From the NCBI GenBank assembly GCA_025935855.1, contig JAICUM010000003.1, positions 1 through 36,706 on the forward strand: a stretch of 36,706 nucleotides of DNA. The letters run 5' to 3'. A program made the position numbers and the translations under genes. Below the pieces are notes generated by a model. The model saw only the letters and a list, made by a program, of their open reading frames with translations, searched no databases and had not been told where the DNA came from. Source of the stretch: Pirellulales bacterium (GTDB taxonomy: Bacteria > Planctomycetota > Planctomycetia > Pirellulales > Lacipirellulaceae). Shown piece by piece: positions 915 through 33,965 of this stretch; within the stretch, counting starts at the first letter, position 1; each line of letters opens with the position of its first letter.

Positions 915-1150
915 TTCTCACGCCGAGGCGCGAAGAAAGAAAAGGGTTTTTGCCGCGAATCTCGCGAATCTTCACGAATAAGGACGGATTGAACAGGAGA
1001 AAGCGGAGCAACAGAGAGGTGGTGGATAATCCAATGTTTCTCTGTTCCCTCTATTCTCCTGTTCATTTTTTTCTTGTTCGTTGATTCGCGTCTATTCGCG
1101 TGATTAGCGGCAAAAAACTCTTCTCTTCTTTGCGTCTCTGCGTGATACCC
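913..1150. repeat. Long imperfect palindromic intergenic repeat (family A, full copy 1)
   Basis: Left half TCACGCCGAGGCGCGAAGAAAGAAAAGG..TTTTTGCCGCGAATCTCGCGAATCTTCACGAATAAGG..TTGAACAGGAGA..AACAGAG is mirrored by CTCTGTTCCCTCTATTCTCCTGTTCA..GATTCGCGTCTATTCGCGTGATTAGCGGCAAAAA..CTTTGCGTCTCTGCGTGA. Confidence 0.8.
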
Positions 1151-2606: not shown

Positions 2607-2858
2607 CGCACGCAAAGGCACAAAGTGGGCGAAGAATAGAAGATAAAAATTCTTTTGCCGGGAATCTCGCCAATCGACGCTAATCAACGAAGAAGAAAAA
2701 ACTGAACAGGAGAGAACAGAGGGAACAGAGAAACATTCGATTATCCGCCACTCCTCTGTTTCCTCCGTTCTCTCCTGTTCAATCCGTTCCTATTCGTGAA
2801 GTTTCGCGAGATTCGCGGCAAAAAATCTTCTTTCTTCTTCATGCCTTTCGCGTGACAC
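2607..2858. repeat. Long imperfect palindromic intergenic repeat (family A, full copy 2)
   Basis: CGCACGCAAAGGCACAAAG..TTTTGCCGGGAATCTCGCCAATCGACGC..CTGAACAGGAGAGAACAGAGGGAACAGAG mirrored by CTCTGTTTCCTCCGTTCTCTCCTGTTCAATCC..CGAGATTCGCGGCAAAAAATCTTCTTTCTTC..CTTTCGCGTGAC. Confidence 0.8.
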
Positions 2859-5904: not shown

Positions 5905-5942
5905 ATTCGCGCCCATTCGCGTGATTCGCGGCTAAAACTCTT
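5905..5942. repeat. Family A repeat, half-arm
   Basis: ATTCGCGCCCATTCGCGTGATTCGCGGCTAAAACTC matches the arm seen at 1083-1120 and 31871-31908. Confidence 0.7.
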
Positions 5943-12970: not shown

Positions 12971-13012
12971 GAAAAGAGATTCGCGATCATTCGCGAGATT
13001 CGCGGCTAATGC
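12971..13012. repeat. Family A repeat, half-arm overlapping the larB 3' end
   Basis: GAGATTCGCGATCATTCGCGAGATTCGCGGCTAA matches the family A arm core. Confidence 0.7.
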
Positions 13013-13784
13013 TCTTGTGGTGAACGCGCGTCGCCACCAGCCCGGCGAGGTAACCGGCTTTAAACCCCGCGTCGATGTTCACGACCGCCACATTCGCCGC
13101 GCAGCTGTTCAGCATGGAGAGCAGCGCCGAGACGCCGCCGAAGTTCGCCCCATAGCCGACGCTCGTCGGCACGGCGAACACCGGACAGGGAACGTACCCG
13201 CCCACGACGCTCGGCAGCGCGCCTTCCATCCCCGCCACGACCACCACCGCGTCGCAATCGACGAATTCCGCCAACCGCGCCGGCAGCCGATGCGGCCCGG
13301 CGACGCCCACGTCCTGCACCATCGCGACGTCCACGCCCATCCACAGCAGCGTTTCGCGGGCTTCTTCCGCCACCGGCAAATCGCTGGTACCGGCCGTGAT
13401 GACCGCCACCCGGCGCTGGGGCAAATGGTCGCCGTCATCGAGATCCACTCGAAACGTGCGCGCCGTGGCGTTATACGCTCCGTCCGGCAACAGTTCACTG
13501 AGCGGCGCCGCCTTCTCCGCGATCACTCGCGTGACGAGCACCGGTTGGCCGCGGTCCAGCAGCTGCCGCGCGATCGACGCTATGGTTTCCGCGGTTTTTC
13601 CCTCGCCATAAATCACCTCGGGAAAGCCACAACGAGCAGCACGATCGACGTCCACGGTCGCAGCCTGCGGACGCGCCTTTACGTCGCTCGATTGCACGAC
13701 AAGTTTAATAAATGTTTCGGCCGTGCATTGGCCGTTGAGAAGCTGCTCGGCGAGGTCATTGAGTTCGTGCGGCGCCATGTCCAC
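12987..13784 (-). CDS. larB: nickel-pincer cofactor biosynthesis protein LarB (AIR-carboxylase-like)
   Basis: PEVIYGEGKT, VITAGTSDLPVAEEARETL, VQDVGVAGPHRL, VVVAGMEGALPSVVGG, VPTSVGYGANFGGVSALLSMLNSCAANVAVVNIDAGFKAGY. Confidence 0.88.
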   Translation of the reverse strand: MDMAPHELNDLAEQLLNGQCTAETFIKLVVQSSDVKARPQAATVDVDRAARCGFPEVIYGEGKTAETIASIARQLLDRGQPVLVTRVIAEKAAPLSELLPDGAYNATARTFRVDLDDGDHLPQRRVAVITAGTSDLPVAEEARETLLWMGVDVAMVQDVGVAGPHRLPARLAEFVDCDAVVVVAGMEGALPSVVGGYVPCPVFAVPTSVGYGANFGGVSALLSMLNSCAANVAVVNIDAGFKAGYLAGLVATRVHHKSISRESRE

Positions 13785-16775: not shown

Positions 16776-19700
16776 TCACTGCTGGCTTAAAGTGGCGGGC
16801 GCTTTCCAATCGAGCGCCGGCCACAGCAGCGTACGACCGTCCCGGCCGCTGGTGAGCGCCGCGCGGCCGTCAGGCGAGAAGCTTACCGAGGTCACCTCCT
16901 CGGCATGTCCGGCCAGCGTAATGATTTCTTTGCCGGTCGCGGCGTCCCACAGCTTCGCGGAATTGTCCTCGCTGCCGGTGATCGCGCGGGCATTGTCAGC
17001 CGATAGGGCGACGCTTGTTAGCGCGGCTGTGTGACCCTTGAGCGTCTGCAAAGCCTTGCCCGTCGCCGCGTCCCACACGATAGCCGTGTTGTCCTCGCTG
17101 CCGGTAATGATCCGCGAGCCGTCGCGTGAAAAAGCGCCCGATCGCACCGCCCATTCATGGCCGGTGAGCGTGAGCAAGACGTTGCCGGTTTTCGCATCCA
17201 CGACGTTCGCCGTCTTGTCGCTCGATACGGTGAGAATCCGCGAGCCGTCCGGCGAGAAGCACGCCTGCAGCACGCCGCCCTTGTGATGCTTCAGCACCGG
17301 CTCGAGCGGAGCGCCGTCCGCCGCGTCGAACAGGCGGGCCGTGCCGTCGTCACTCGCCGTAAGAATCCGCGAGCCGTCCCGCGAATAGCAAACGCTGTTG
17401 ATATAGCCCGAGTGAATGTTGTCGAGCTTCACCAGCACCTTGCCGGTGGCGACGTCCCAGATTTTGGCCGAGCGATCCCAGCTTCCCGTGACGATGCGTT
17501 TTCCGTCGGGCGAAATGTCGGCCGAAGCGACCACGCCGTGCGGGCTGAAGCGCACGGCGAGTTTGCGCGTAACGATGTCGTACAACCGGGCGTCGTTGCC
17601 GCCGATGACCAGCAACCGCTCGCCGACGGGTGCGAAGCGGGCCGCCCACACGATGCCGCCGCGGCCGCCCATGTCGAGCCAGGACTGCGGTTGGCCCTTG
17701 TCGTTCGCGATGGTGATTTCCTGGCCGGCGTCCAAATTCCACAGCTGCACCGTGCCGTCAGCGGCGCACGCCGCTGTGGCGAGCCGGCCGTCGGCGGAGA
17801 GGTCGATTGAGGTGAAGGCGAGGTCTTTTTTGCGTGGCTCGAGCGTTCGCAGCAACCGAGCGTCGGCGAGCGACCACAGCCGCAGTTTGCCGTCGTCGCA
17901 GCAAGTGAGCCCGAGCCGCCCGTCTGCGGACACGGCCAGATCGGCGACATAATCGGGATGCCGCAGTAAACCCGCTGGGATTTCCTGGCCGGTCGCCACG
18001 TCCCACTGACCGCAGGTGTTATCGCCGCTGGCCGTCACAAGCCGCGCCCCGCGATTGATGAAGTGCATCGCCGTGATTGTGCGGCTATGACCCCGCAACA
18101 CCGGGCCGGCGGTCCACTTGTTCGTCGCCGCATCGAGCCGCCACAGCCGGACGAAGCCGCGGTCGCCGCCGCTGGCGAGCAGCGTTCCGCCGGGGCCGAA
18201 ACGCAACGACGTGACCTCGGCTGCATGCCCGGTGAGCGCCGCCACTTTCGCTCCGTTGGCGGCGTCCCAGATCTGCACTTCATTGCCGCCGCCGCCAGTG
18301 GCGATGAGCTTTCCATCGTCCGAAACGTCGAGGGCCGCCGTTCGGCCGGTATTTTCCAGGTGCGAAAGCTCCGTGCCGGCCGCCACATCCCACATCCGCA
18401 CGGTGCCATCGCCGGCGCCCGTGGCCAGCCGCGTGCCATCGGCGAAGAACACCGCGGACGAGGCGAGGAAGTCGTGCCCCTCGTGGAACCACTGCTGGCG
18501 GGCCAGCGTCGCGGCGTCCCATAGCGAGGCCGTGCGATCGTGGCTGGCGGTCACAATTTCCTTACCGTCCCGCGAGAAGCGCGCCGACAGGACAGAGTCA
18601 GGGATCTCATTGTGGTCCACTGCCAGCGCTAGCGTTTCACTATGGCCCGCCGGGTTCCAGAGTTTGATTTGTGCGTCGCGGCCACCCGAGAGGATCCACG
18701 CGCCTTCGGGAGAATAGGCGACGCTGTTGACGTGGCTGGCGTGGCCGCGCAGCTGCCTGAGCTCTTTGCCGCTCGCGACGTCCGACAGGACGACCATGTT
18801 GTCCTGTCCGCCGCTGGCCAGGCTCTTGCCATCCGGAGAGAACGCGATCGTGCGCACCGGGCCGCGATGGCCGGCCAGTGCCGTGAATGGCACGGGCGCC
18901 TCGGGCTCCTTGTCCAGCCGGCGCTCAATATCCACGGGACGCGTTTCTTCCAGGTTCCAGATGAGCACTCGCCCGTCGTACCCCGCTGAGGCGATGTGCA
19001 GGCCGTCGGGCGCGAATTTCGCCGCGTACACCGGCCCGTGGTGTTGCGTGAACTCGGTTTCGTTGACGAACTCCTCGGGCGGCAAGTTCTTCGCCGCCTC
19101 GCGCAGGGCGGCCCCGCGGCTGTTTTTCGCGATCGAGGCGCGGAGCCAAACGATGGCTTTGCCGTCCTGCCCGGCGGTGACGATGCGATTGCCGTCGGGC
19201 GAGAATTCCGCCGACCACACCCACCAGCTATGGCCACGGAGGATTTGGGTCGTCTGGCGCGTGGCAAGGTTCCACAAGCGAGCGGTTTGATCGTAGCCGC
19301 ACGTGACGAGCCACTGGCCATCCGGCGAGAAACGAACGCTTAACACGCCGTCGGTGTGGCCATCGAGCGGCGCCATGAGCGCACCGTCGGCGGTGCGATA
19401 AATGTGAACGCTGCCGTCACTTCCGCCGGCGGCGAGGCGCTCGCCGCGCGGATCGTACCCCACTGAGTACACATACTGAGCTTGCGACAACTCGCGTTCG
19501 GGCTTGCCGGTTTGCAGATTCCAGATCGAAGCCTTGCCGGCGCGATCGCCGATGGCGAAGTGCATGCCGTCCGGTGAAAACGCGACTGCCTCAACCGGCG
19601 CGGCGTTCTTCCAGGACTTATCGGCGAGGTTGCACAGGTAATTCAGCCGGCCCCATTCCCAGTTCCGCAAACTCGGCGGGCACTCGGCCAGCAGCTCCGC

Positions 19701-21752
19701 GGCGCGGTCGAAGGCATTCTCGTCGATCTTGGTTTTGGTCAAGCCAATGCGGGCGATGTACGCGGAGTACTCTTCGGCTTTCTTGGATTCGTTGGCCAGG
19801 TCGCGCTGCTTGGTGGCCTCAACAGTTTGCGCGTCGGCGATGTTTTTCTGCTTCACGGCCTCGACCAGATTGGTCTTCGCCTCGCCTTCAGCCTTGGTGG
19901 CGCGATCCCGTTGCTGCTCAGCAGTATTCTTTTGAGCCAATGCTTCCTGGCGTGCGGTTTCCGCTTCCTTAAAGTTCTTATTCGCCTCTCCCTCGGCCAC
20001 GACCGCGCGATCGCGCTGCACGACGGCCTCGTTGCGTTCCTTGCGCACGGCGGCGAACGCCACCGACACGACGACGATGACGGAAGCCACGAGCGCGGCG
20101 ACGGCTCCTTTCAAGACACGGATGCGACGCTTGCGCGATTCACGCTCGCGGCGGCCGGCCTCGAGCATCGCGAGCAGCTCGCGATGCTCCGCGACCGCGG
20201 AGTCCAGCAGCGACGCCCCCAGATCGAAATCGCCCTTGTCGAGCGCCAGCTTGGCGTATTCAATTCGCGCGGTCGAAAGCAGCGCGGTCGCCCGCGGGTT
20301 CTCCGGCCACAAGGCGAGCGACTCTTCCAGACCATACATCACGCGAGCGTACAGCTCGTAATCCTGCCGCTCCTTCGCCAAGAGCATATTCCGCTGGGCA
20401 TGCTCGACCAGTTGAATGCTCTGCGAATGCGACTGATACTCGCGCACGGCCCGCTGGAAGGCCGGCACGCTTTCGTGCCGATCCTCGGCCTCGGTGGCCA
20501 TCGCCTTCTTGGCAATCTCGAACAGCTCGCCGGAAACGCCTTCGGCCGGCTGAATTTGGTTCTTCGCGGCGGCGAAGAGGCAGGCCATCACCGTCTTGCC
20601 GGAGTGCGGCGGCCTGCCGGCCAGGATTTCATACAGGATGGCGCCGAGCAGGTAGACGTCGCTGGCCTTTGTGATCTTCTCCAGCGGCCCGGTGGCCATC
20701 TCCGGCGCCATGTAGGCCGGCGTGCCGCCCATCGCGTCCGACTGGCTGACGGATGCGGCATTGGGGAATTCGGGGCTCACGCGCGCCAGTCCCCAGTCCA
20801 TTACCAGCACTTCGCCGAAGTCGCCCAGCATGACGTTCTCGGGCTTCAAGTCGCGATGGATCACGCCGTTCACATGGGCGAACGCCACCGCGTCCGCCAC
20901 GCGCAGCAGAATCGTCAGATTGTCGTCCAGCGATTTCTGCTTGAGGACCTTGTTCCACGGCGTCCCTTTGACGCGCTTCATTGAGTAGAAGAGCGCGCCT
21001 TGGTTATCGGCGCCAAGGTCGTAAATCGGGACGATGTTCGGGTGGTCGAGCTCGCCGGTGACCACCGCTTCGGAGATGAACTTGTCGCGCTGGGCCACGT
21101 TTTTGTGGTCGCCGTCCTTGAGCATCTTCAGGGCGACTGTCCGCGCGATCGACGATTGCCGGGCCGCGTACACGACGCCCATGCCGCCTTCGCCGATGAT
21201 GTTCAAGAGCTCGTAGTCCGGCGCGTCGGCGGGCGACGTGCTCGGCGATGTCACGGCTCCGGTCGGCACCACTTGCCGTGACTTGACCACCAGCGAAGAG
21301 CTGGTCATGAAGGAACCGCGGATGGTTTCCTTCTGCTTGATCGTCGCTCGCGAGTCCGTCGCCGCGGATCCCGCGATATTCCCCTCCCAGTGCGAGGTGA
21401 GCATGCTTTCGTCGATTTCCTTGCTTCCGCCGAGGAACTCGATCGTTTGCTCGGCGCTGAAATCGACCGTCAGCGGCTGAATCGATGGACCGTCGAACGA
21501 CGACCGGCTTTGGCTCAGCTCCAGCGAGGCGAGCGTCTCCTGATCGACCGAGTGGCCCGCGGTGTCTCCGGCGGGGAGTTCGATCGTAACTTCGTTCGGC
21601 GGATACTCCTCGATCGTGTTGGCCGTCGGGAAGCGAACGTCCGCGATCGTGCGCTGGGGAAGCTGCCGCCATACGGCCCCGCACGAGGGGCAGCGGGCCG
21701 CTGTGCGAGAGGCTTCGTCAAGCTCGTGTTGGCAACTAGGACAAGCAGCCAT
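16776..21752 (-). CDS. transmembrane Ser/Thr protein kinase with zinc-ribbon-like N-terminus and C-terminal WD40 propellers
   Basis: CPSCQHEL..CPSCGAVW; GEGGMGVVYAARQ, VALKML, HRDLKPENVMLGDFGEVLVMDWGLA; TM GAVAALVASVIVVVSVAFAAV; about 21 WD40-type units. Confidence 0.93.
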   Translation of the reverse strand: MAACPSCQHELDEASRTAARCPSCGAVWRQLPQRTIADVRFPTANTIEEYPPNEVTIELPAGDTAGHSVDQETLASLELSQSRSSFDGPSIQPLTVDFSAEQTIEFLGGSKEIDESMLTSHWEGNIAGSAATDSRATIKQKETIRGSFMTSSSLVVKSRQVVPTGAVTSPSTSPADAPDYELLNIIGEGGMGVVYAARQSSIARTVALKMLKDGDHKNVAQRDKFISEAVVTGELDHPNIVPIYDLGADNQGALFYSMKRVKGTPWNKVLKQKSLDDNLTILLRVADAVAFAHVNGVIHRDLKPENVMLGDFGEVLVMDWGLARVSPEFPNAASVSQSDAMGGTPAYMAPEMATGPLEKITKASDVYLLGAILYEILAGRPPHSGKTVMACLFAAAKNQIQPAEGVSGELFEIAKKAMATEAEDRHESVPAFQRAVREYQSHSQSIQLVEHAQRNMLLAKERQDYELYARVMYGLEESLALWPENPRATALLSTARIEYAKLALDKGDFDLGASLLDSAVAEHRELLAMLEAGRRERESRKRRIRVLKGAVAALVASVIVVVSVAFAAVRKERNEAVVQRDRAVVAEGEANKNFKEAETARQEALAQKNTAEQQRDRATKAEGEAKTNLVEAVKQKNIADAQTVEATKQRDLANESKKAEEYSAYIARIGLTKTKIDENAFDRAAELLAECPPSLRNWEWGRLNYLCNLADKSWKNAAPVEAVAFSPDGMHFAIGDRAGKASIWNLQTGKPERELSQAQYVYSVGYDPRGERLAAGGSDGSVHIYRTADGALMAPLDGHTDGVLSVRFSPDGQWLVTCGYDQTARLWNLATRQTTQILRGHSWWVWSAEFSPDGNRIVTAGQDGKAIVWLRASIAKNSRGAALREAAKNLPPEEFVNETEFTQHHGPVYAAKFAPDGLHIASAGYDGRVLIWNLEETRPVDIERRLDKEPEAPVPFTALAGHRGPVRTIAFSPDGKSLASGGQDNMVVLSDVASGKELRQLRGHASHVNSVAYSPEGAWILSGGRDAQIKLWNPAGHSETLALAVDHNEIPDSVLSARFSRDGKEIVTASHDRTASLWDAATLARQQWFHEGHDFLASSAVFFADGTRLATGAGDGTVRMWDVAAGTELSHLENTGRTAALDVSDDGKLIATGGGGNEVQIWDAANGAKVAALTGHAAEVTSLRFGPGGTLLASGGDRGFVRLWRLDAATNKWTAGPVLRGHSRTITAMHFINRGARLVTASGDNTCGQWDVATGQEIPAGLLRHPDYVADLAVSADGRLGLTCCDDGKLRLWSLADARLLRTLEPRKKDLAFTSIDLSADGRLATAACAADGTVQLWNLDAGQEITIANDKGQPQSWLDMGGRGGIVWAARFAPVGERLLVIGGNDARLYDIVTRKLAVRFSPHGVVASADISPDGKRIVTGSWDRSAKIWDVATGKVLVKLDNIHSGYINSVCYSRDGSRILTASDDGTARLFDAADGAPLEPVLKHHKGGVLQACFSPDGSRILTVSSDKTANVVDAKTGNVLLTLTGHEWAVRSGAFSRDGSRIITGSEDNTAIVWDAATGKALQTLKGHTAALTSVALSADNARAITGSEDNSAKLWDAATGKEIITLAGHAEEVTSVSFSPDGRAALTSGRDGRTLLWPALDWKAPATLSQQ

Positions 21753-21844: not shown

Positions 21845-24800
21845 TTACCGAGGTTTCTTGCGAGAACGCCCTCGCGCCGCCCGCAGCCGCTTCCACTGGC
21901 TCGGCTTGGCCGCGGCCAGCGTCTTGTCGAGCTGCCGTTGCCAATCGCGGCCGGCGCCGGATAGCGCCAGCGCCGCGCCGGCCAGCGCCGCGCGGTGATA
22001 AATCGTGCTGGACGAGCGCATCCGGGGCGACCCCTGGATCGCGTCATCGACGGAATTGGTTCCACTTACGGCGTCAATCGCAGACGTGGCGGCCGGAACC
22101 GGCTCATTGATCGGCGAAATCGGTTGGATATTTTTTGCGGCGGCCTTGTTCGCGCCGGCATCGTTTGGATTCGCGTCGGTCGGCGGCTTCAGCTCCGCGG
22201 CCGGCTTCGCATCTTCCGTCGGCGGCTTGTCGCGGCCGCCTTCGCTGTCGTCGCCCGGGTCGACCAACTTGCCGTTGCGAACAACCACCTCGATCACCAG
22301 CCGGCTTTTGTTATTCTCAGGCTGCACGAGGTAAATCGCATAATGGTTGTCCGGCAGATTGCGGAACAGCCCCGGCAAGTTTTTCATCACCTCGGGCCGC
22401 AGGCGATAGCCCTCGCTCATCGTGCCGTCGGGATTGATGACCCGCAGCTCGAAGTACCGCTCGCCGGCGGCTTGCGATTCGCCCGCCGAGCCGCGCACAT
22501 CATTCGGCGCCAGGGTCGCGAGGCGCGTGTCTTGCGTCGTCAGCACTGGCGGCGAGGCGGGCCGCTCAGGGAACGTCAGCACCGCGACCGCCGGCGTCAA
22601 ATCAATGCGGATGAACTGGTTACCGATGCCCGGGTTCTTCAGATCGCGATCGACCGGATTGCTCTGGCCCGATTCATCGGGCGGCGCGACCACGGTTTGC
22701 GGCTGCGGAAAGTCGTCGTCATGAATGCGAACGACGATGGGAATGGTCGCCGATGGGTGAAGCGGATCAGGAGCCTCGGTATAGGTGTGCGTGGCCGTGA
22801 ACATGTGCAGACCGGATGTTGCCGCCGCCGGCGTCACGGTGAACGTTTCCTCGTGCGGCCCTTTGTTGTCGCCCCAATCGACAAACAGCTTGTACGTGTC
22901 GCGGCCGGGATCGGTAAACGTGCCGGTGATCGTCGTTTGGCCCTTGGTGTTCACGTCGGTGGCGAAGAACGTAGCGTCGCTCAGCGTTGGGCTGACGTTC
23001 TTCACATCGACGCTCAGCGTTTTCACGGTGACGCCGCCGTCGTCGTCGCGGATGGTGATGGTGACTGTGTAAACGCCGTTATCGACATAGGTGTGCTGGG
23101 CGTCGAACGAGCCGGCTGTGAGTACGCCCGGGCTGCCGAAGACATCGGTTGTCGGCACGCCGTTCTGCTCGACCGGATCGTCGCCCGGCTGGAACCGCGG
23201 CTGGTCGCCCCAGTTGATCGTGTAAGTAAACGTTTCCTGGGTCTGGCCGCCGTTCGTGACGTTCCCCGCGTTGAGCGGATTGTCGAAGCCGGGGTCGGTG
23301 AACTGCGAGATGTTCAGCACCACCAACTGGCTGCCTTCATGAATCGTCTGGTCGGCCGCCACTTGAACGGTCGGCGCCACGTTGTTCACCGTGATCGTCA
23401 ACGTGCGGGAATCGACTGGACCATCGTCGTCCGAGAGCTTCACCGTGACGGTGTAGACGCCGTTGTCCGCATAGGTATGCGGCGCGTGGTCGAAGTCGGC
23501 GGTGGTCGGCACGCCAGGCGAGCCGCTGACACGATTGACGGTGGTCACCGGCGTGAGGGCCGTGCCGTCGCCCCAGTCGATCGTGACGCCCGCGAAGGTT
23601 TCCTCGAACTCGCCGCCGTTGGACGCGTTGCCGGCGTTCAGCGGATTGTCGAACCCCGGATCCTCAATCCGCACGCCAAGCCCCGCGAGGGTGAACGCCT
23701 GGCCTTCGTCCCGCACCAGTCCTGACGTGCCTGTGAGCGTCGGATCGACGTTCAGCACCGTCACGGTGAACGTCTGCTGGTGCTGCCCGCCATCGTCGTC
23801 GAACACCGTCACCGCGACGGTGTACGTGCCGTTGTCGGCGTAGGTGTGCGAGCCGTCGAACGACCCGGCGGTCAGGACGCCAACGCTGCCATGCACATCG
23901 ATCGTGGCATCGCCGGTGTTCGCCGCCGTGCCGTCGCCCCAATCGGTGCTGAAGGTAAACGTCTCGACGGTCTCGCCGCCGTTGGACGCGTTGCCGGCGT
24001 TGAGCGGGTTGTCAAAGCCTGGATCGGTAAACGTCCCAATGTTCGTGAGCGAGAGCAGGCTGCCTTCGTCAATCGTCTGGCTGCCGACAACCGAAAGCGC
24101 CGGACTGACGTTCAAGACGTTGACCGTAAACGTCGTCTGATCCTGCCCGCCGTCGTCGTCAAAAACCGTGACGGTGACGGTGTAATTGCCGTTATCGGCG
24201 TAAGTGTGGGAGCCGTCGAACGAACCGGCGGTGAGCGTCCCCGGGCTGCCGTGTACGTCAATCGTCCCATTGCCGGAATCAGTCGCCGTTCCGTCGCCCC
24301 AATTCACGGTGAACGTAAACGTCTCGACCGTTTCGCCGCCGTTCGCCGCGTTGCCGGCGTTCAGTGGATTGTCGAACCCGGGATCGGTGAACGAACCGAT
24401 GTTCGTCAGCGTGAGCAAACTACCTTCATTGATGGTCTGATTGACCGGGGCCGACAGCAAAGGCGCGACATTCAGCACCGATACTTGAAACGTCTTCGCG
24501 TCGCTGCCGCCATCATCGTCGAAGACCTTGACAGTTACGGTATACGTGCCGTTGTCAGCATAAGTGTGCGAGCCGTCGAACGAGCCCGCCGTCAGCACAC
24601 CCGGACTTCCAATCACGTCAACGGTTGCATTGCCGGCGTCAGTGCTCGTACCGTCTCCCCAGTTGACCGTGAAAGTGAACGTCTCCACCGTTTCGCCGCC
24701 GTTGTTTGGATCGAGCGTGTTCAGCGGATTGTCGAAGCCCGGATCGGTAAACGTCCCAATGTTGGTCAGCGATAGCAGCGATCCTTCGTTGATCGTCTGA

Positions 24801-27250
24801 TTACTGACGACCGCAAGCGTCGGACTGACGTTCAACACCGCCACTTGGAACGATTTCTGGTCCTGCCCGCCGTCATCGTCGAACACGGTCACAGTGATGG
24901 TGTAATTGCCGTTGTCGGCAAAGGTGTGTGATCCGTCGAACGACCCGGCCGTCAACACGCCGGCACTTCCCGCGATGTCCACGGTCGCATTTCCAGCGCT
25001 CATGGCCGTGCCATCACCCCAGTTGATCGAGTAGGTGAAGGACTCCACCGTTTCCCCGCCATTGGAGACGTTCCCGGCGTTGAGCGGATTATCGAAGCCC
25101 GGATCGGTAAACGTCCCGATATTCGTCAGCGATAGCAGCGAGCCTTCGTTGACCGTCTGATTGCCGACCACCGTCAACGACGGGCTGACATTCGTAACCG
25201 TCACGCTCGCCGAGCCGAGACCGACGCCGGAGTCGTCGTCCGTCACCGCAACCTGCACGGCGTACGTGCCGTTGTCGGCATACGTGTGGCTGGCGGAGAA
25301 GGAATGCCCTGCCGCCGCCCCCACGGTCACCGCCGTGCCGTCGCCCCAGTTGACTTGGTAGGTGTGCGTGTCCAGTGTGCCCGGATCGTCAAACGTGAAC
25401 GCCAGCGACACCAGGTTTCCTTCAGCCACCGTCGGCGAACTGGGCGTCACTTGCACGTTGAATGGCGCGACGTTGTTCACCGTGATTGGGGCGCTGGCGA
25501 TCCCGATGCCGCCGTCATCGTCCAAGACGCGCACCTTCACCATGTACACGTCCGACGGCGTGCCGGTCGGATTGTCATCGAGATACTGATGGTTGGCTGT
25601 GAATGTCCGCGCTCCCGCGGCCACGGGTAGCGTCTGCAGGGCAGAGCCGTCGCCCCAATCCACCTCGACCATGTGCGTGTCGAGCGTCCCCGGATCGGTG
25701 AACGAAAGATTCAGCATCGCGACGCCGTTCTCATCGACGGGCGAAAGCGGCGTAATCACAATCGCCGACGGCGGCACGTTGCTCACCGTAACCGACGTCA
25801 TCGCCGTACCTTCGCCGGTGTCGTCGTCGATGACGCTCACCTTGATCGTGTAATTGTCCGACGAAGTGCCCGTCGGGTTGTCGTCCAAATACTGGTGGCT
25901 CGCAGCGAGCGTCCGGGCTCCCGCCGCGACGGGCAGCGTCTCCACGGCCGAACCGTCGCCCCAGTCCACCTGCACGGTGTGCGTGTCGAGCGTGCCGGGA
26001 TCGGTGAACGACAAGTTCATCATCGCCACGCCGTTCTCGTCGATCGGCGTGACGGGATCGAGCTGAATCCCCGACGGCGCCACGTTGTTCACGGTGATCG
26101 ACTGCGCGCCGCTCACCTGCCCGCCATCGTCGTCCGCCACCGTCACCTTCACGGTATACATGTCCGACGGCGTGGCCGTGGGATTGTCGTCCAAATACTG
26201 GTGCGTCGTGCCGAACAGCCGCGCGCCCTGCGACAGGTTGAACGACTCGACCGAGCCGTCGCCCCAATCCACTTGGACCGTGTGCGTGTCGAGCGATCCC
26301 GGATCGTCGAACGAGAGGTTTAGCTGAGCAAGGCCGTTCTCGTTGATCGTTCCCAGCGCGCCGATTTGTAGATTCGACGGCGCCACATTGTTCACCAGCG
26401 CCGGCACGGTGGCGCTCGCTTCGCCGCCGTCGTCATCCAGCACGCGGACCTTGACCGAGTAAATGTCGAACGTCGTTCCGCTCGGATTGTCATCCAGGAA
26501 TTGGTGCGTCGTGCCGAAGAACCGCGCGCCCTGCGAGACATTGAACAGCTCAGTCGAGCCATCGCCCCAGTTCACCTCGACCTGGTGCGTGTCGATCGTG
26601 CCCGGATCGTCGAACGTTAGCTCGAGCGACGCCACGCCGTTTTCATTTACCGGCAGAATTGGCGCGATCTGCAGATTCGACGGCGCCACGTTGTTCACCG
26701 TGATCGGCGTGGAGGACGACGCGGACCCGCCCTGCGAGTCGGTCACCGTGGCCTTGACGATGTACGTGTCAGCCGGCGTGACGCTCGGGTTGTCGTCCAG
26801 ATACTGGTGCGTGGTGCCAAAGAACTGCGATCCGGCCGGCACATTGAACAGTTCGGTCGACCCGTCGCCCCAATCCACCTCGACGGTGTGCGAGTCCAGT
26901 GGGTCAGGATCGTCGAACGTTAGCTCCAGCGAGGTAATGTCGTTTTCGGGAATCGCCTGCAAGGGCGCGATCTGCACGTTCGACGGCGGCGTGTTTGACG
27001 AGCCGGTGGGGACGATGATTAGCGGTTCGGCCCGGTCCGTCTCACCCTGCGGGGTCGAATCCTTGCTGGTCTGCACGTAGTCGTGCTGCGTCGCGGCGAG
27101 GTCGAGGGTCAGCGCCGGAGCCGCGGCATCGAGCATGCGGCGGGGTTCCAGCCGTCGAGCCACCAGCTCCAGCCGCGTGGCGGCGGCAGCATCGGGCCGG
27201 CGGCTAAACAGCTCGGACAATCGTCGGCGTCGGCGCGGTCGGGCAGCCAT
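21845..27250 (-). CDS. giant PKD-repeat extracellular/surface protein with LEPR-type N-terminal motif
   Basis: 1801 aa; N-terminal LVARRLEPRRMLDA; about 13 PKD-like units with VxWGDG..HxYxDNGxYTVxVxVxDDDGG; hydrophobic stretch and basic C-terminus. Confidence 0.9.
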   Translation of the reverse strand: MAARPRRRRRLSELFSRRPDAAAATRLELVARRLEPRRMLDAAAPALTLDLAATQHDYVQTSKDSTPQGETDRAEPLIIVPTGSSNTPPSNVQIAPLQAIPENDITSLELTFDDPDPLDSHTVEVDWGDGSTELFNVPAGSQFFGTTHQYLDDNPSVTPADTYIVKATVTDSQGGSASSSTPITVNNVAPSNLQIAPILPVNENGVASLELTFDDPGTIDTHQVEVNWGDGSTELFNVSQGARFFGTTHQFLDDNPSGTTFDIYSVKVRVLDDDGGEASATVPALVNNVAPSNLQIGALGTINENGLAQLNLSFDDPGSLDTHTVQVDWGDGSVESFNLSQGARLFGTTHQYLDDNPTATPSDMYTVKVTVADDDGGQVSGAQSITVNNVAPSGIQLDPVTPIDENGVAMMNLSFTDPGTLDTHTVQVDWGDGSAVETLPVAAGARTLAASHQYLDDNPTGTSSDNYTIKVSVIDDDTGEGTAMTSVTVSNVPPSAIVITPLSPVDENGVAMLNLSFTDPGTLDTHMVEVDWGDGSALQTLPVAAGARTFTANHQYLDDNPTGTPSDVYMVKVRVLDDDGGIGIASAPITVNNVAPFNVQVTPSSPTVAEGNLVSLAFTFDDPGTLDTHTYQVNWGDGTAVTVGAAAGHSFSASHTYADNGTYAVQVAVTDDDSGVGLGSASVTVTNVSPSLTVVGNQTVNEGSLLSLTNIGTFTDPGFDNPLNAGNVSNGGETVESFTYSINWGDGTAMSAGNATVDIAGSAGVLTAGSFDGSHTFADNGNYTITVTVFDDDGGQDQKSFQVAVLNVSPTLAVVSNQTINEGSLLSLTNIGTFTDPGFDNPLNTLDPNNGGETVETFTFTVNWGDGTSTDAGNATVDVIGSPGVLTAGSFDGSHTYADNGTYTVTVKVFDDDGGSDAKTFQVSVLNVAPLLSAPVNQTINEGSLLTLTNIGSFTDPGFDNPLNAGNAANGGETVETFTFTVNWGDGTATDSGNGTIDVHGSPGTLTAGSFDGSHTYADNGNYTVTVTVFDDDGGQDQTTFTVNVLNVSPALSVVGSQTIDEGSLLSLTNIGTFTDPGFDNPLNAGNASNGGETVETFTFSTDWGDGTAANTGDATIDVHGSVGVLTAGSFDGSHTYADNGTYTVAVTVFDDDGGQHQQTFTVTVLNVDPTLTGTSGLVRDEGQAFTLAGLGVRIEDPGFDNPLNAGNASNGGEFEETFAGVTIDWGDGTALTPVTTVNRVSGSPGVPTTADFDHAPHTYADNGVYTVTVKLSDDDGPVDSRTLTITVNNVAPTVQVAADQTIHEGSQLVVLNISQFTDPGFDNPLNAGNVTNGGQTQETFTYTINWGDQPRFQPGDDPVEQNGVPTTDVFGSPGVLTAGSFDAQHTYVDNGVYTVTITIRDDDGGVTVKTLSVDVKNVSPTLSDATFFATDVNTKGQTTITGTFTDPGRDTYKLFVDWGDNKGPHEETFTVTPAAATSGLHMFTATHTYTEAPDPLHPSATIPIVVRIHDDDFPQPQTVVAPPDESGQSNPVDRDLKNPGIGNQFIRIDLTPAVAVLTFPERPASPPVLTTQDTRLATLAPNDVRGSAGESQAAGERYFELRVINPDGTMSEGYRLRPEVMKNLPGLFRNLPDNHYAIYLVQPENNKSRLVIEVVVRNGKLVDPGDDSEGGRDKPPTEDAKPAAELKPPTDANPNDAGANKAAAKNIQPISPINEPVPAATSAIDAVSGTNSVDDAIQGSPRMRSSSTIYHRAALAGAALALSGAGRDWQRQLDKTLAAAKPSQWKRLRAARGRSRKKPR
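23600..25190. repeat. about 360-bp-period tandem repeat within the PKD gene
   Basis: Blocks such as GCGGATTGTCGAAGCCCGGATCGGTAAACGTCCCAAT recur near 24001, 24361, 24721 and 25081. Confidence 0.85.
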
Positions 27251-28419: not shown

Positions 28420-28612
28420 CCATCCCGGTAGGGATGCCCTGAGAATTGCCCAGCGTTTCAACGCTGGGTTTAAAGGCAGGTGTATTCTGTAGTAGTCCCG
28501 GTAGGGACGATTGAGGTTTCAGTCGTCCCTACTGGGACTATTGATGGTACTTGTGCCTCAATACCCAGCGTTGAAACGCTGGGCTATTCTCACTTTGCCC
28601 CGATGGGGCAAT
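28420..28612. repeat. symmetric cluster of hairpin repeats
   Basis: CATCCCGGTAGGGATG; TGAGAATTGCCCAGCGTTTCAACGCTGGGT (28440-28469); AGTCCCGGTAGGGACGA; TCGTCCCTACTGGGACT; ACCCAGCGTTGAAACGCTGGGCTATTCTCA (28563-28592); TTGCCCCGATGGGGCAA. Confidence 0.85.
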
Positions 28613-28646: not shown

Positions 28647-30851
28647 TCAGAATACGCGTTGAAACGTTCGCCGCAGCTCATCCAGCACCAGCGCGCCGAC
28701 GGTGCTACGATAGGCGTCGATTTTCGCCGTGCCGCGTGCTCCAGCGAACAGTGGCGCGTCTGCGTCGTTAATCTCGATCTGCACGACGTGATACTTGTTC
28801 TCGCTCGTCGCCGGCTTGAAGCGTGAAGTGTTCGCTGCTCTGCCGCTTTCGTTAGATCGCGCGCGGCGAGCGACTGAAATTACGCTGCCGTTCAGGATCG
28901 ACGACGGCGCATCATCGGCGACGACGCGGACGGACTGACCGATTTCGACCGCCGGGACGTCGGCTTGCTCGACGCCGGCCCATGCTGTCCAGCCGCCGGG
29001 TTCGGCGACAATGGCCAGCGGCGTGCCCAATTCGATCCAGGCGCCTTCATTTCGACGATCCAGCGGCGAGCCGCTCCACACGCCAAGCTTGTCGGGCGAA
29101 TGCTCCTCGGACGCGCGAGCCGGCGGCGGAAGCAGCCGGCCGGCAGCCGGTGAGCGAATCATAAGCGAATCGACCTGCGATTGCCGTTCGGCCAACTGCG
29201 CCTCGGCGTCGGCGAGCTCGGCAATTGCCGCGGGAATCAATCGGGCTGCCGTTGGCTGCACGACTTGCAGCGTGCGTAATTGCTCGAGCCTGGTTCGCAG
29301 CTCGGCAACCTTGCCCTGTTGTTCCGCGAGGGCCATTTCCAGTTCCGGATTTTGCAAGCGAGCGACAACTTCGCCGGCCTTTACGTCCGCGCCCGCGGGC
29401 AGAGCAAATTCGAGTTCGCCAGGCAGAACCGCAAAGAGCGGGTGCGAGTGCGACGGCACGATGGCCAGCGGCGCCTTGACGCGCCGCGTGACGGGAACGA
29501 TCAGCACGCCGCCGACCACCGCCGCGAAAATGCCGCAGGCCGCGATCAGTCGGAGCCAACGAAATCGCGACCTCGCCGCGGGATTACGCATCAACTTCAC
29601 CGTGCTCATCACTGGCTGCATTAGCATGCCCGCGATCGCCACGACGGCGAGCGTATAGACGAGGTTCTGCAGTTGATAGGGCCGGGCGAGCTTCAGCATC
29701 AGCATGAAGACGCCGGCCAGCACTAGGGCCAGGTAGAGTTTTGCAAGCACCGCATAGATCCACAGTGCTCGCCGCTTGTGCGGTCCTAGGAGCGGATCGT
29801 CCCGCCGCGGCTCATCCAGCAACCATTGCCGCCACGATGAGGATATCAGTCCGCGCGCCCGGTCCGCCAGATTCGGCACTTCAAGCCCGTCGGCCAGTAG
29901 ATAGTAGCCGTCGTAACGCAAGAGGGGATTGGCGTTCACCAGCAGTGTGCCCACCGAGCAGACGACGATCAAGCTCAGACACAACGTGCTGAGCAGCCCC
30001 GACGCGGCGTAGCTCCACACAATCGCCGCCGAGGACGCGATGACCAGTTCGACCGCCATTCCCGCGCTGGAGACGGCCATCCGCTGCCACTTGCTCGGCA
30101 GCCGCCAAGCGTCCGATACGTCGCAATACAAACTCGGCGCTCCCGCTAAGAGCAACATGCCGATTTCCTGCGGCCGCGCGCCGAAATGCCGGCACGCGAG
30201 CGCATGACCCAACTCATGGAGGATTTTCACGCCGATCACCGCGGCGATCCACACGGGGATCAGGCCGGGGCGCGTTAATTCGCGAATGTGCGGCAGCCGG
30301 GCGGCGAGCTCCGTTGCGTTACCCAGCACGAGCAGTACCGCAAGGACCACCAAGCATCCGGCCGCCATGAGTGCCAGCGGCGTGCATAGCCAACGTACAG
30401 CGGCATAAAGTCGATCGATCACTGGGTCGGCGTCGATGCCGCCCAAGCGGATCGACAAGAGTTGCAGCCAACTCATCCGGCGTTCGAATCGCTGCCGCTC
30501 ACGGTCGCGCTTCAATAGCTCGCCCCCTTGGCCGGGGTTCTCGCCGAGCAGCAGTCCCTGTTCATACAGCCGGCTCACGAACTGCTGCAGTTGCGTGATC
30601 GACGCGCGCCGCGGCGCGAACTGCGACTCCAGCCGCCGCTGAAGCATCCGCAAGCTGGCGGGGTCCCGCAGCGCGTCCAGCAGCGCGTACTCCTCGGCCG
30701 TCAGATGGAACGACTCCCCCGCCACTGGATCCTTCACTACAAAGGTCGCGCCCCCTCCGATCGCCACTTCGATGACCTGCAAATCCGCGCGCATCCGCAG
30801 CGGCAGCGTGCGCTCGGCAGCCGAACGGTTGTGATCGTTTGCGCGATGCAT
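28647..30851 (-). CDS. PqqD-like/M50 metallopeptidase/HlyD-type fusion membrane protein
   Basis: PqqD-like N-terminus; M50 zinc motif HELGHALACRHFGARPQEIG; NANPLLRYDGYYLL; C-terminal lipoyl/HlyD region LPAGADVKAGEVVARLQNPELEMALAEQQGKVAELRTRLEQL. Confidence 0.85.
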   Translation of the reverse strand: MHRANDHNRSAAERTLPLRMRADLQVIEVAIGGGATFVVKDPVAGESFHLTAEEYALLDALRDPASLRMLQRRLESQFAPRRASITQLQQFVSRLYEQGLLLGENPGQGGELLKRDRERQRFERRMSWLQLLSIRLGGIDADPVIDRLYAAVRWLCTPLALMAAGCLVVLAVLLVLGNATELAARLPHIRELTRPGLIPVWIAAVIGVKILHELGHALACRHFGARPQEIGMLLLAGAPSLYCDVSDAWRLPSKWQRMAVSSAGMAVELVIASSAAIVWSYAASGLLSTLCLSLIVVCSVGTLLVNANPLLRYDGYYLLADGLEVPNLADRARGLISSSWRQWLLDEPRRDDPLLGPHKRRALWIYAVLAKLYLALVLAGVFMLMLKLARPYQLQNLVYTLAVVAIAGMLMQPVMSTVKLMRNPAARSRFRWLRLIAACGIFAAVVGGVLIVPVTRRVKAPLAIVPSHSHPLFAVLPGELEFALPAGADVKAGEVVARLQNPELEMALAEQQGKVAELRTRLEQLRTLQVVQPTAARLIPAAIAELADAEAQLAERQSQVDSLMIRSPAAGRLLPPPARASEEHSPDKLGVWSGSPLDRRNEGAWIELGTPLAIVAEPGGWTAWAGVEQADVPAVEIGQSVRVVADDAPSSILNGSVISVARRARSNESGRAANTSRFKPATSENKYHVVQIEINDADAPLFAGARGTAKIDAYRSTVGALVLDELRRTFQRVF

Positions 30852-30882: not shown

Positions 30883-31863
30883 TCAAATCCCTTCCTTCTT
30901 TTGGCTCGTAACTTCTTTACCCGGCAGAAGTAGCTGCCCCTGTTGTCCGGGACGGAGCTTGAGGTCGTGGTTGTCGATCTCCGCCCAGATGCGAACTTGC
31001 TTGCTCACGGGATCGATTTCCGGGCTGCTGAACCGCAGCACCCCTTCGACAATGGCTGGCCCGGCCGGCTTGGCATCTTTCGTAAGCACAAACCGCACTT
31101 TGGCGCCCAACAGCGTGCCATCCGCGGCCTCCGCCGGCGCGAACCCTTCGGCGCGCAGCTTTTGCACAGCGACCAACCGCAGCACGGGCGCGCCGGGTTC
31201 CACCCATTCGCCGGTGCGGCCGTGAACCAGAGCGACGACGCCGGCGAACGGCGCCCGCACGGAGTGCAGCTCCAGGTCGAGCTTCGCCGATTCCAGGGCG
31301 TTCTCTTTCAGTTGCAGATCAAACCGGTCGAGCGTCTGATCGTGTTCCGCCTGCCGCCGTTCGAGCTGCAGCTTGTCGACGGTGAGCTGTTCGACGTCCA
31401 GCTGCGACTGCGAGATGCTTTTGGCGAACTGGGCGTTTGATTCGCTGGAACGCTTCATTTCGGCGCGGGCGACCTCCAGGGCCTTGTCGGCATACTGCAC
31501 TCGCAAGTCATTGCTCGCCTTGGCGGCCGCCTGCTGCCGTTCGAGGTCGGCCTTTTGCAGGCTCAGCTTCGCCGCGCGATCGTCGAGCGAGGCCAGGACG
31601 TCGCCTTCTTTCACCATCGCGCCTTCTTCAACGGCGATTTTCGCGAGCACGCCCGTTTGCCGCGCTGGAACCTCTGCCTCGACCATCGGCCGCAACACGA
31701 CTGCGTCAATCCGCAGCGGCTCGGCCGCCTGACCGGGAGAAAACAGAAGAGTTGCCGCGAATAGCGCGAATAGACGCGAATAGGATTTAACAGGAGGTAA
31801 CAGAGGTTTGCAGAAAAGCTCTGTTCCCTCCCGTTTCTTCTTCTTAATTCTTATGTGATTCAT
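30883..31863 (-). CDS. HlyD-family periplasmic adaptor
   Basis: PARQTGVLAKIAVEEGAMVKEGDVLASLDDRAAKLSLQKADLERQ (lipoyl half-motif), coiled coil, SVRAPFAGVVALVHGRTGEWVEPGAPVLRLV. Confidence 0.85.
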   Translation of the reverse strand: MNHIRIKKKKREGTELFCKPLLPPVKSYSRLFALFAATLLFSPGQAAEPLRIDAVVLRPMVEAEVPARQTGVLAKIAVEEGAMVKEGDVLASLDDRAAKLSLQKADLERQQAAAKASNDLRVQYADKALEVARAEMKRSSESNAQFAKSISQSQLDVEQLTVDKLQLERRQAEHDQTLDRFDLQLKENALESAKLDLELHSVRAPFAGVVALVHGRTGEWVEPGAPVLRLVAVQKLRAEGFAPAEAADGTLLGAKVRFVLTKDAKPAGPAIVEGVLRFSSPEIDPVSKQVRIWAEIDNHDLKLRPGQQGQLLLPGKEVTSQKKEGI

Positions 31864-31908
31864 TGTCTTAATTGATTCGCGTCTATTCGCGTGATTCGCG
31901 GCAAAAAA
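31751..31908. repeat. Long imperfect palindromic repeat (family A, copy 3) overlapping the HlyD gene 5' end
   Basis: GTTGCCGCGAATAGCGCGAATAGACGCGAATAGGATTTAACAGGAGGTAACAGAG mirrored by CTCTGTTCCCTCCCGTTTC..GATTCGCGTCTATTCGCGTGATTCGCGGCAAAAAAC. Confidence 0.8.
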
Positions 31909-31916
31909 CCTTCTAC

Positions 31917-33965
31917 TTAAAACGTCAGCCAGCGGTACAGCGTGGCGCCGGCGTCGTGCAGCCAGACGTAGCCGAGCGAACGCTTGCCGCAGTGGACTTG
32001 CACCGACGCGGTCATTCCTGGCCGGGCTGCCGGCGGCACGTCACCGTCGAGCGCGATCCGGACCTTCACCGGCGGGGCTTCATTCTCCAATCCTTCCGGC
32101 TCCAGCGGCGCCGCGGAACTGATTTGAACGACATGGCCCTCATACGTTTGTTGCACGTCGCCGGCGAGCCGTAGGCTCACGGCTAGTTTTTCCGTTTCTT
32201 CTTGTTGTGCTTTAAGGACGTGGCCAATCTGCCGTTGGGGCACATCGGCGACAAGTTCCCAGCCACTGCCGGTGTCGGCTACAGTGAGCAGCGCTTGCCC
32301 GCGCTCGACGGGCCGCGAGGCGAGCAGGCTATCCACGTCGCGCGTCAGCACCTGCCCGGCGATCGGGCTGCGTAGCGTCAGGGCCTCGTGGTTCTGCTGC
32401 AGCAGCGTCCGCTGAGCCTGAAGGCTGGCCAAACGCTCTTCAAGCTGCCGCTGTTCGGCGGCCAGCGGCAGGCGATCTTCTGTTTGCTTGCTCTCCCGGA
32501 GTGTACGATCAGTCCGCGTGACAGCCAGGGCCTCCAGCCGTTTTTGGGCGGCATCGATTTCGCCCCGGACCTGCTGCAACTTGAGCGACAGTTCCGGATC
32601 GTTCAGCACGATGAGCACATCGCCCTTGGCGACCATTTGACCGTGTTTGACGTGTATCTCGCTAATCGAACCCGTGGCGGTCGCGAACACTTCTCGTTCA
32701 ACGGCGGCATGCACCGTAGCCGGCGCCTCCACATGAAAACCGGCCGGTACAAAAACGAGGGCCGCGATAACAGCCGCGATGGCGCCGACGACGGCCATCC
32801 TTCGCGTGAGCCGGCCGGGTTGAATGGCGTCATTGAACGCTTCCGACAACTTCAACAATGAGCGCATGGGAAAGCGGTCGAGCGCCGCCGCCCGACCCAG
32901 CGCCGGGCCGCACATCTCGCCAAGCTCCACGACCTGCTCGCGCCAGCCGGCAGGCGCCGCGGAATCGAAGCGCTCGGCGATCAAGACCGCATCGAAACTG
33001 CTCTTCGTGCTTCGCTTGAGCGATGTTTCAACTTCTTCGGGACCTGAGACTCGAAAAGCGATTGGCACACAGGCCAGTTCGCGTGCATGGGAGTGATCGA
33101 CGTGTTCCTCGAGCACCGCCGTCACGCTCGGCGGCAGGAGCTCTCCGTCCGGGTCGTCGGCCGGGTAACTTAGCGGTTCGCCCCATTTGGCGACTTGCTC
33201 GGCAAGCCGTTCGGTCCGATGGGCGTACTCGGTCCGCCGCTCGACGCGGCTGGCGCCGCTCGCGGCGAGAAGCCGCCAGCGTCCACCGCGTTTGACGAGG
33301 ACGCTGAGCCGGTCGCAGGAGAGGAGCCGGCGGCCTTCGTTGGCGATTTCGAAGGCCACGCCCTTGAGATCGCGCGGCGACTGAACTCGGCGCAAGAAAT
33401 CGGCCGCCTGTCGGTGGAGCAGGGCGCTCGCGCGCAGTTGGCGCAGCTCATCGAGCGCGTGGAAATCCTCGGCGACGTCGCCGAGCGTCGCGGCGAATTC
33501 CAGCCAGCCTTGCTGCACCAGCGGGCTTGACACGCCGGCGAACCACAGTTCAAAGGCCGCGACCGCGTAAAAGTGCTCGGCGGCGTCCTCGGCCGCAACT
33601 GGATTGGCAACCGGCGCCACCAAGCACTCAAGCTCTCCGGCGGCCGTCGCGTGAATTTCTGCGGCGTTAGTTTCGAATGCCGCGCCGATCCATTTGCGGC
33701 GCTGAGCGGGCTGGATGGAATCGATCTCAGCATTCGCTCTGCCGCTGGACGCCCATTGGCAGACGAGCTCCAGCGTACTATCGGAGCGCCGTCGCCAGGC
33801 CGCTCCGCCGACAGCGCCGACGGCCGCACCCGCTTCCGCTAGCAGCCGCCGGTAAAATTCGCGGACGTCTAATCCCGCGCGGGCGGCTGCGTGCTGGCGC
33901 TCGACGGCCGATTCCAGCTGCAGCCAGCTAGCAACAGGCGCATCGAGGTCGTCGCGGTCGGTCAT
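31917..33965 (-). CDS. GAF-like-TM-HlyD fusion protein
   Basis: Soluble N-terminal about 400 aa with GAF-like region (VAFEIANEGRRLLSCDRLSVLVKRGGRWRLLAASG), TM MAVVGAIAAVIAALVFVPAGF, then lipoyl/HlyD (VFATATGSISEIHVKHGQMVAKGDVLIVLNDPEL). Confidence 0.8.
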   Translation of the reverse strand: MTDRDDLDAPVASWLQLESAVERQHAAARAGLDVREFYRRLLAEAGAAVGAVGGAAWRRRSDSTLELVCQWASSGRANAEIDSIQPAQRRKWIGAAFETNAAEIHATAAGELECLVAPVANPVAAEDAAEHFYAVAAFELWFAGVSSPLVQQGWLEFAATLGDVAEDFHALDELRQLRASALLHRQAADFLRRVQSPRDLKGVAFEIANEGRRLLSCDRLSVLVKRGGRWRLLAASGASRVERRTEYAHRTERLAEQVAKWGEPLSYPADDPDGELLPPSVTAVLEEHVDHSHARELACVPIAFRVSGPEEVETSLKRSTKSSFDAVLIAERFDSAAPAGWREQVVELGEMCGPALGRAAALDRFPMRSLLKLSEAFNDAIQPGRLTRRMAVVGAIAAVIAALVFVPAGFHVEAPATVHAAVEREVFATATGSISEIHVKHGQMVAKGDVLIVLNDPELSLKLQQVRGEIDAAQKRLEALAVTRTDRTLRESKQTEDRLPLAAEQRQLEERLASLQAQRTLLQQNHEALTLRSPIAGQVLTRDVDSLLASRPVERGQALLTVADTGSGWELVADVPQRQIGHVLKAQQEETEKLAVSLRLAGDVQQTYEGHVVQISSAAPLEPEGLENEAPPVKVRIALDGDVPPAARPGMTASVQVHCGKRSLGYVWLHDAGATLYRWLTF

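Follow-up and report, generated by a model that had tools for sequence, protein, structure and literature searches.

A dispersed palindromic repeat that probably encodes the start codon and hydrophobic core of a predicted secretion signal in a planctomycete HlyD-type protein

The window considered here, which is the whole stretch of 36,706 nt that was analysed, includes three genes of an HlyD/M50 export cluster (Table 1). The middle gene matches the Pfam families HlyD_3 (E = 2.5e-13), HlyD_D23 and Biotin_lipoyl, and its protein is 65–70% identical to same-genus orthologues. The upstream neighbor is syntenic in three same-genus genomes (G001, G003, G004), and the downstream neighbor in four (G001–G004); all three genes keep their order in three genomes of the genus. 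By codon usage the middle gene as a whole is strongly coding, while its residues 11–30 are atypical for the genes of the genome. Other features of the window include a palindrome, CCCAGCGTTTCAACGCTGGG, found at 28449–28468 and 28564–28583 just 3' of the M50/HlyD gene, with four further copies in the draft genome, and two long repetitive open reading frames. One of these, of 1801 aa (21845–27250, reverse strand), has tandem repeats of approximately 360 and 303 nt (22868–26964), as do large repetitive surface/adhesion-like proteins, and the other, of 1658 aa, has many units of approximately 126–129 nt over 16776–21752 and resembles a WD40-type repeat protein.

Table 1. Coordinates of the genes and repeat features discussed in the text
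Feature	Position	Strand	Remarks
Gene downstream of HlyD CDS	28647..30851	(-)	734-aa M50 peptidase/HlyD protein (Pfam Peptidase_M50, HlyD_3)
HlyD-type membrane-fusion protein CDS	30883..31863	(-)	326 aa, ATG at 31863; from translation, Pfam and orthologues
Gene upstream of HlyD CDS	31917..33965	(-)	682 aa, C-terminal HlyD domain (Pfam HlyD_3)
Coding arm	31754..31781	(-)	Encodes Y28–A37 (YSRLFALFAA); exact match to ATTCGCGNNNATTCGCGNNATTCGCGGC
Arm position 19	31763..31763	(-)	T on coding strand, giving Leu34 (CTA)
Inner palindromic module, AACAGGAGG-N-AACAGAG and reverse complement	31789..31835		In frame in the CDS
Start codon ATG	31861..31863	(-)	Within the element, between its arms; only in-frame ATG/GTG/TTG
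Partner arm	31875..31902	(+)	Upstream of the start codon; exact pattern match
Full-length element copy	952..1111		Intergenic, between convergent genes
Full-length element copy	2657..2819		Intergenic, between divergent genes

The repeat whose copy is found at the start of this gene is abundant. In the source genome, a 5.16-Mb draft in 827 contigs with a completeness of 82%, the arm ATTCGCG-NNN-ATTCGCG-NN-ATTCGCGGC occurs in 92 copies (at most three mismatches), versus none for a reversed-pattern control, so its recurrence is far above chance. A total of 94 distinct arms were gathered; on grouping they gave 59 elements, of which 34 are inverted pairs and 25 have one recognizable arm only, in some cases owing to a nearby contig end. 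In the long class the arms are separated by approximately 93–117 bp, and between them there is frequently another inverted module, AACAGGAGG-N-AACAGAG, of which the genome has 50 copies; the element, of approximately 150–165 bp, consists of an inner palindrome flanked by two outward-reading arms. A periodicity of roughly 10 bp is apparent within the arms. The preliminary description had placed the same repeat in two intergenic regions, and these copies are real (near 950–1118 and 2655–2826), their arms being related to those at 31752–31781 and 31875–31904. Arms without a partner are found at 5905–5932 and 12979–13006, and the latter overlaps the final 20 bp of an open reading frame (12987–13778, reverse strand) and provides its stop codon. 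Arms overlap 3' gene ends in a like manner at four further loci (L045, L125, L168, and L210), several elements providing the last few codons of a gene along with its stop. Of the elements with both neighbors called, 44 of 52 lie between co-directional genes, compared to 42 of 62 control pairs, a weak excess (Fisher p = 0.049).

One intergenic copy, folded as 930–1130, is predicted to form a hairpin of −91.3 kcal/mol (z = −9.1). A covariation check on the NNN spacer triplets gave agreement between partner arms for just 3 of 33 pairs, which suggests that conservation of the arms is at the level of sequence rather than structure. Arms are present in all five other genomes of the genus, and variants are found in other genera of the family and in other Pirellulales. 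A scan of the 36,706-nt window against Rfam matched no family, a search of the available literature for the arm sequences found no description of such a repeat, and a scan of IMG/VR with the exact arm returned no match, thus giving no sign of a viral origin. With 92 arms, 34 inverted pairs and hairpin z scores of −8.8 (the copy within the gene) and −9.1, the family has, like the protein-coding palindromic repeats of the RPE/RU type, the properties of a dispersed multicopy palindromic element.

As to the copy within the gene, the translation quoted earlier for this frame, beginning MNHIRIKKKKREGTELFCKPLLPPVKSYSRLFALFAATLLFSPGQAAEP, was reproduced exactly, and the claim that 31863 is the sole compatible ATG is also borne out: the frame, which stays open upstream into the preceding gene, has no further ATG, GTG or TTG, leaving this as the only canonical start. 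In a draft sequence such as this, one wrong base would be enough to shift the frame. It lies, as had been noted, between the two arms, which are 93% complementary to each other when compared as an inverted repeat (31752–31781 versus 31875–31904). The partner arm, 97% identical to the arm at 1081–1118, and the upstream gene's stop are 14 bp apart. The coding arm supplies residues 28–37, in agreement with the proposal that the hydrophobic core is encoded by the repeat; the share of the signal peptide credited to the repeat was, however, understated. The inner module, made of two inverted matches to CTCTGTTNCCTCCTGTT (31789–31805, reverse strand, and 31819–31835, forward strand), adds much of the n-region, and as this module is itself a dispersed repeat, approximately the first 37–40 of some 46 signal-peptide residues appear to derive from the element. 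No Shine-Dalgarno sequence was seen ahead of the ATG. The RNA of this copy is predicted to fold with −75.9 kcal/mol, and in the resulting hairpin the ATG falls within an internal loop that is rich in A and mostly unpaired. Translation would begin at 31863.

Sec signal peptides have a positive n-region, a hydrophobic core of approximately 7–15 residues and a cleavage site of small residues. Read by this rule of thumb, the HlyD N-terminus has all three: a predicted n-region with a net charge of +7, the core LFALFAATLLF, with a mean Kyte-Doolittle hydropathy of 2.57 over 11 aa (versus 2.20–2.55 in four orthologues), and a cleavage-like end, GQA/AEP. By hydropathy, the coding reading ranks third among 564 readings of the elements. 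The N-terminus may be expected, on these features, to work as a secretion signal.

Comparison with close relatives, which had been suggested as a check, is informative in this respect. The four same-genus orthologues possess signal peptides free of any repeat, ordinary-looking and approximately 20–30 aa long (for example, MKLRFHITMVAVLLCGTLAGA). From the upstream stop to the conserved motif IDxVVLRP there are 206 nt in the window versus 101, 138, and 127 nt in three relatives, whose repeat-free junctions are thus approximately 70–105 nt shorter. As the element takes up approximately 150–165 of the 206 nt, there is too little room for the ancestral start and signal peptide besides it, suggesting that older sequence was lost or overwritten, beyond mere insertion. 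Most likely, then, the element is a newcomer to the lineage of the window, where it has superseded the original start codon and the greater part of the signal peptide. As with RPE and RU elements, in-frame residues from the element are present in a conserved gene and absent from its orthologues. MITEs are recognized by a target-site duplication and by the terminal inverted repeats of a known transposase; terminal inverted arms are present here, none of the relatives with an empty site is near enough for a duplication to be recognized, and the junction arithmetic suggests replacement of ancestral sequence rather than its simple splitting.

One position of the coding arm deserves separate mention. 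Of the 94 copies, 91 have G at arm position 19 and two have A; the only T is that of the coding copy. Translated in the frame of the gene, the arm gives x-S-R-x-F-A-(NNA)-F-A-A, and a G at position 19 turns the variable codon into NGA, for Arg, Gly or stop; with the family-typical Arg instead of Leu34 the hydropathy of the core would be 1.82, versus 2.57. The mean mismatch rate at the specified positions of the arm is 3.8%. The G-to-T change fits selection for a hydrophobic core, and it is suggestive only, being a single substitution spotted post hoc.

Such a gene start appears to be rare. The proposed scan for other repeat-encoded starts was carried out on 138 elements in six genomes (59 in this genome, 46 in G004 and G005, and 33 in G001–G003), with approximate gene calls from a simple codon-usage finder, and revealed no second clear case, that is, no other coding sequence among these elements with its start and N-terminus inside an element and no plausible later start. 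Other overlaps with gene starts amount to 2 bp and 12 bp in G001–G003, with none in G004 or G005. A response regulator adjoining an arm in G001 was considered as a second case and rejected; it has a plausible later start and looks like an over-extended gene call. ATG-started readings that leave the elements are not rare in themselves (33 paired elements gave 66 outward readings, with 22 ATG starts among them).

The latter count is relevant to the reading that the insertion simply disrupted the gene, with chance accounting for the ATG and the open frame, and with the protein no longer exported or an incipient pseudogene. The frequency of such chance readings and the lack of a visible Shine-Dalgarno sequence speak for it. 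However, the mature part is intact at the identity to orthologues given above, the core is of signal-peptide grade, as its rank shows, with a cleavage-like site following, and the unique T removes an Arg, Gly or stop codon, and we consider a broken gene unlikely. It is also conceivable that translation begins at a non-canonical codon 3' of the arm, or is coupled to the upstream stop, leaving the repeat as leader only. In-frame CTG codons are found near the end of the arm, many N-terminal overlaps of REPs may be extragenic, as translation can start downstream of them, and REPs that annotation places in N-termini often lie outside the gene in fact, the gene calls being over-extended (PMC3733652); the G001 response regulator is reminiscent of such a call. 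Yet no ATG, GTG or TTG follows the arm. The most that such a start would leave is a short remnant, for instance LLFSPGQAAEP, which lacks the length of a signal peptide; the orthologues from the genus, four in all, do possess one. A downstream start is thus improbable in this gene, as none could make a signal peptide.

The least probable of these explanations, and a very improbable one, is misassembly, with a copy of the repeat misjoined into the junction. The draft is in 827 contigs with many dispersed copies; against this, the flanking genes are syntenic neighbors in three relatives, which supports the assembly at the repeat junction, the coding copy differs from every other copy, and a misjoin would rarely preserve the frame. 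The exaptation of repeat DNA into a predicted secretion signal, as put forward in the preliminary description, is supported by the repeat-free signal peptides of the orthologues, by their shorter junctions and by the lack of a later workable start. We put at roughly three in four the probability that repeat DNA has in this way come to serve as a secretion signal.

From these observations we infer an order of events, including export and selection, whose probability as a whole we rate the same. A dispersed palindromic element would have inserted where two co-directional genes of an HlyD/M50 export cluster meet at a short junction, displacing the ancestral start codon of the second gene along with most of its ancestral signal peptide. 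Translation would now begin at the ATG of an A-rich stretch inside the element, a positively charged n-region would be read partly from the inner module, the outer arm would provide most of the core LFALFAATLLF that follows, and the element reading would join the gene at the cleavage site near GQA/AEP. The G-to-T change in the arm would then have put Leu for Arg in the core, and was probably kept by selection for secretion. A further, rather doubtful proposal is dual use of the element, in which the arms would specify the secretion signal and, in the mRNA, also form a long hairpin that leaves the start codon in an open loop. If so, one piece of selfish DNA would control both secretion and translation, and, given the frequently hydrophobic reading of the outward strand, new signal peptides could arise repeatedly from such elements in planctomycetes.

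The phenomenon is of a kind already known, given the precedents of RU-2 in Yersinia and RPE in Rickettsia, while novelty lies in the repeat family, the phylum, the host gene and the unique substitution. In Yersinia, an RU-2/YPAL element makes up residues 1–30 of the predicted signal peptide of YPO1552, whose homologues in other genera possess unrelated, repeat-free signal peptides (Delihas, 2007; PMC2759123). In both cases a small dispersed palindromic element supplies the start of a predicted signal peptide; here, however, the repeat family and the phylum are unrelated to those of Yersinia, the host gene belongs to a conserved cluster and encodes a conserved protein recognizable as HlyD, and no other copy of the repeat family shares the substitution found in the coding copy. 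An enterobacterial RU-1/ERIC element is fused to an HlyD-like fragment, PLU3667, in Photorhabdus (PMC2759123), so that there too an HlyD-type reading frame has a repeat at its 5' end, but PLU3667 is a short frame (145 aa) that is HlyD-like in its C-terminal region, whereas the protein described here is full length. According to the review PMC2229807, the RPEs of Rickettsia (Ogata et al., 2000), palindromic elements of 105–146 bp, add in-frame residues to conserved proteins and are fused in frame in many genes, in 19 reading frames as reported. The present element also gives in-frame residues in a conserved protein, but it does so at one N-terminus, which it appears to have replaced and turned into a predicted targeting signal. 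The many short copies, often as inverted pairs between co-directional genes, are reminiscent of REP/BIME sequences with RAYT transposases; unlike these, the arm consensus carries no GTAG/CGTC tag, the arms are not hairpins themselves, and no arm is found near any of the five Y1_Tnp loci found and examined, so that an association of the repeat with RAYT was rejected. Overall, this would be a clean case of a conserved gene whose predicted targeting signal was made from a non-coding repeat; the state before is visible in relatives, and there is a candidate selected substitution. It would illustrate the tolerance of signal peptides for random sequence and extend repeat-to-protein exaptation from Proteobacteria to Planctomycetes.
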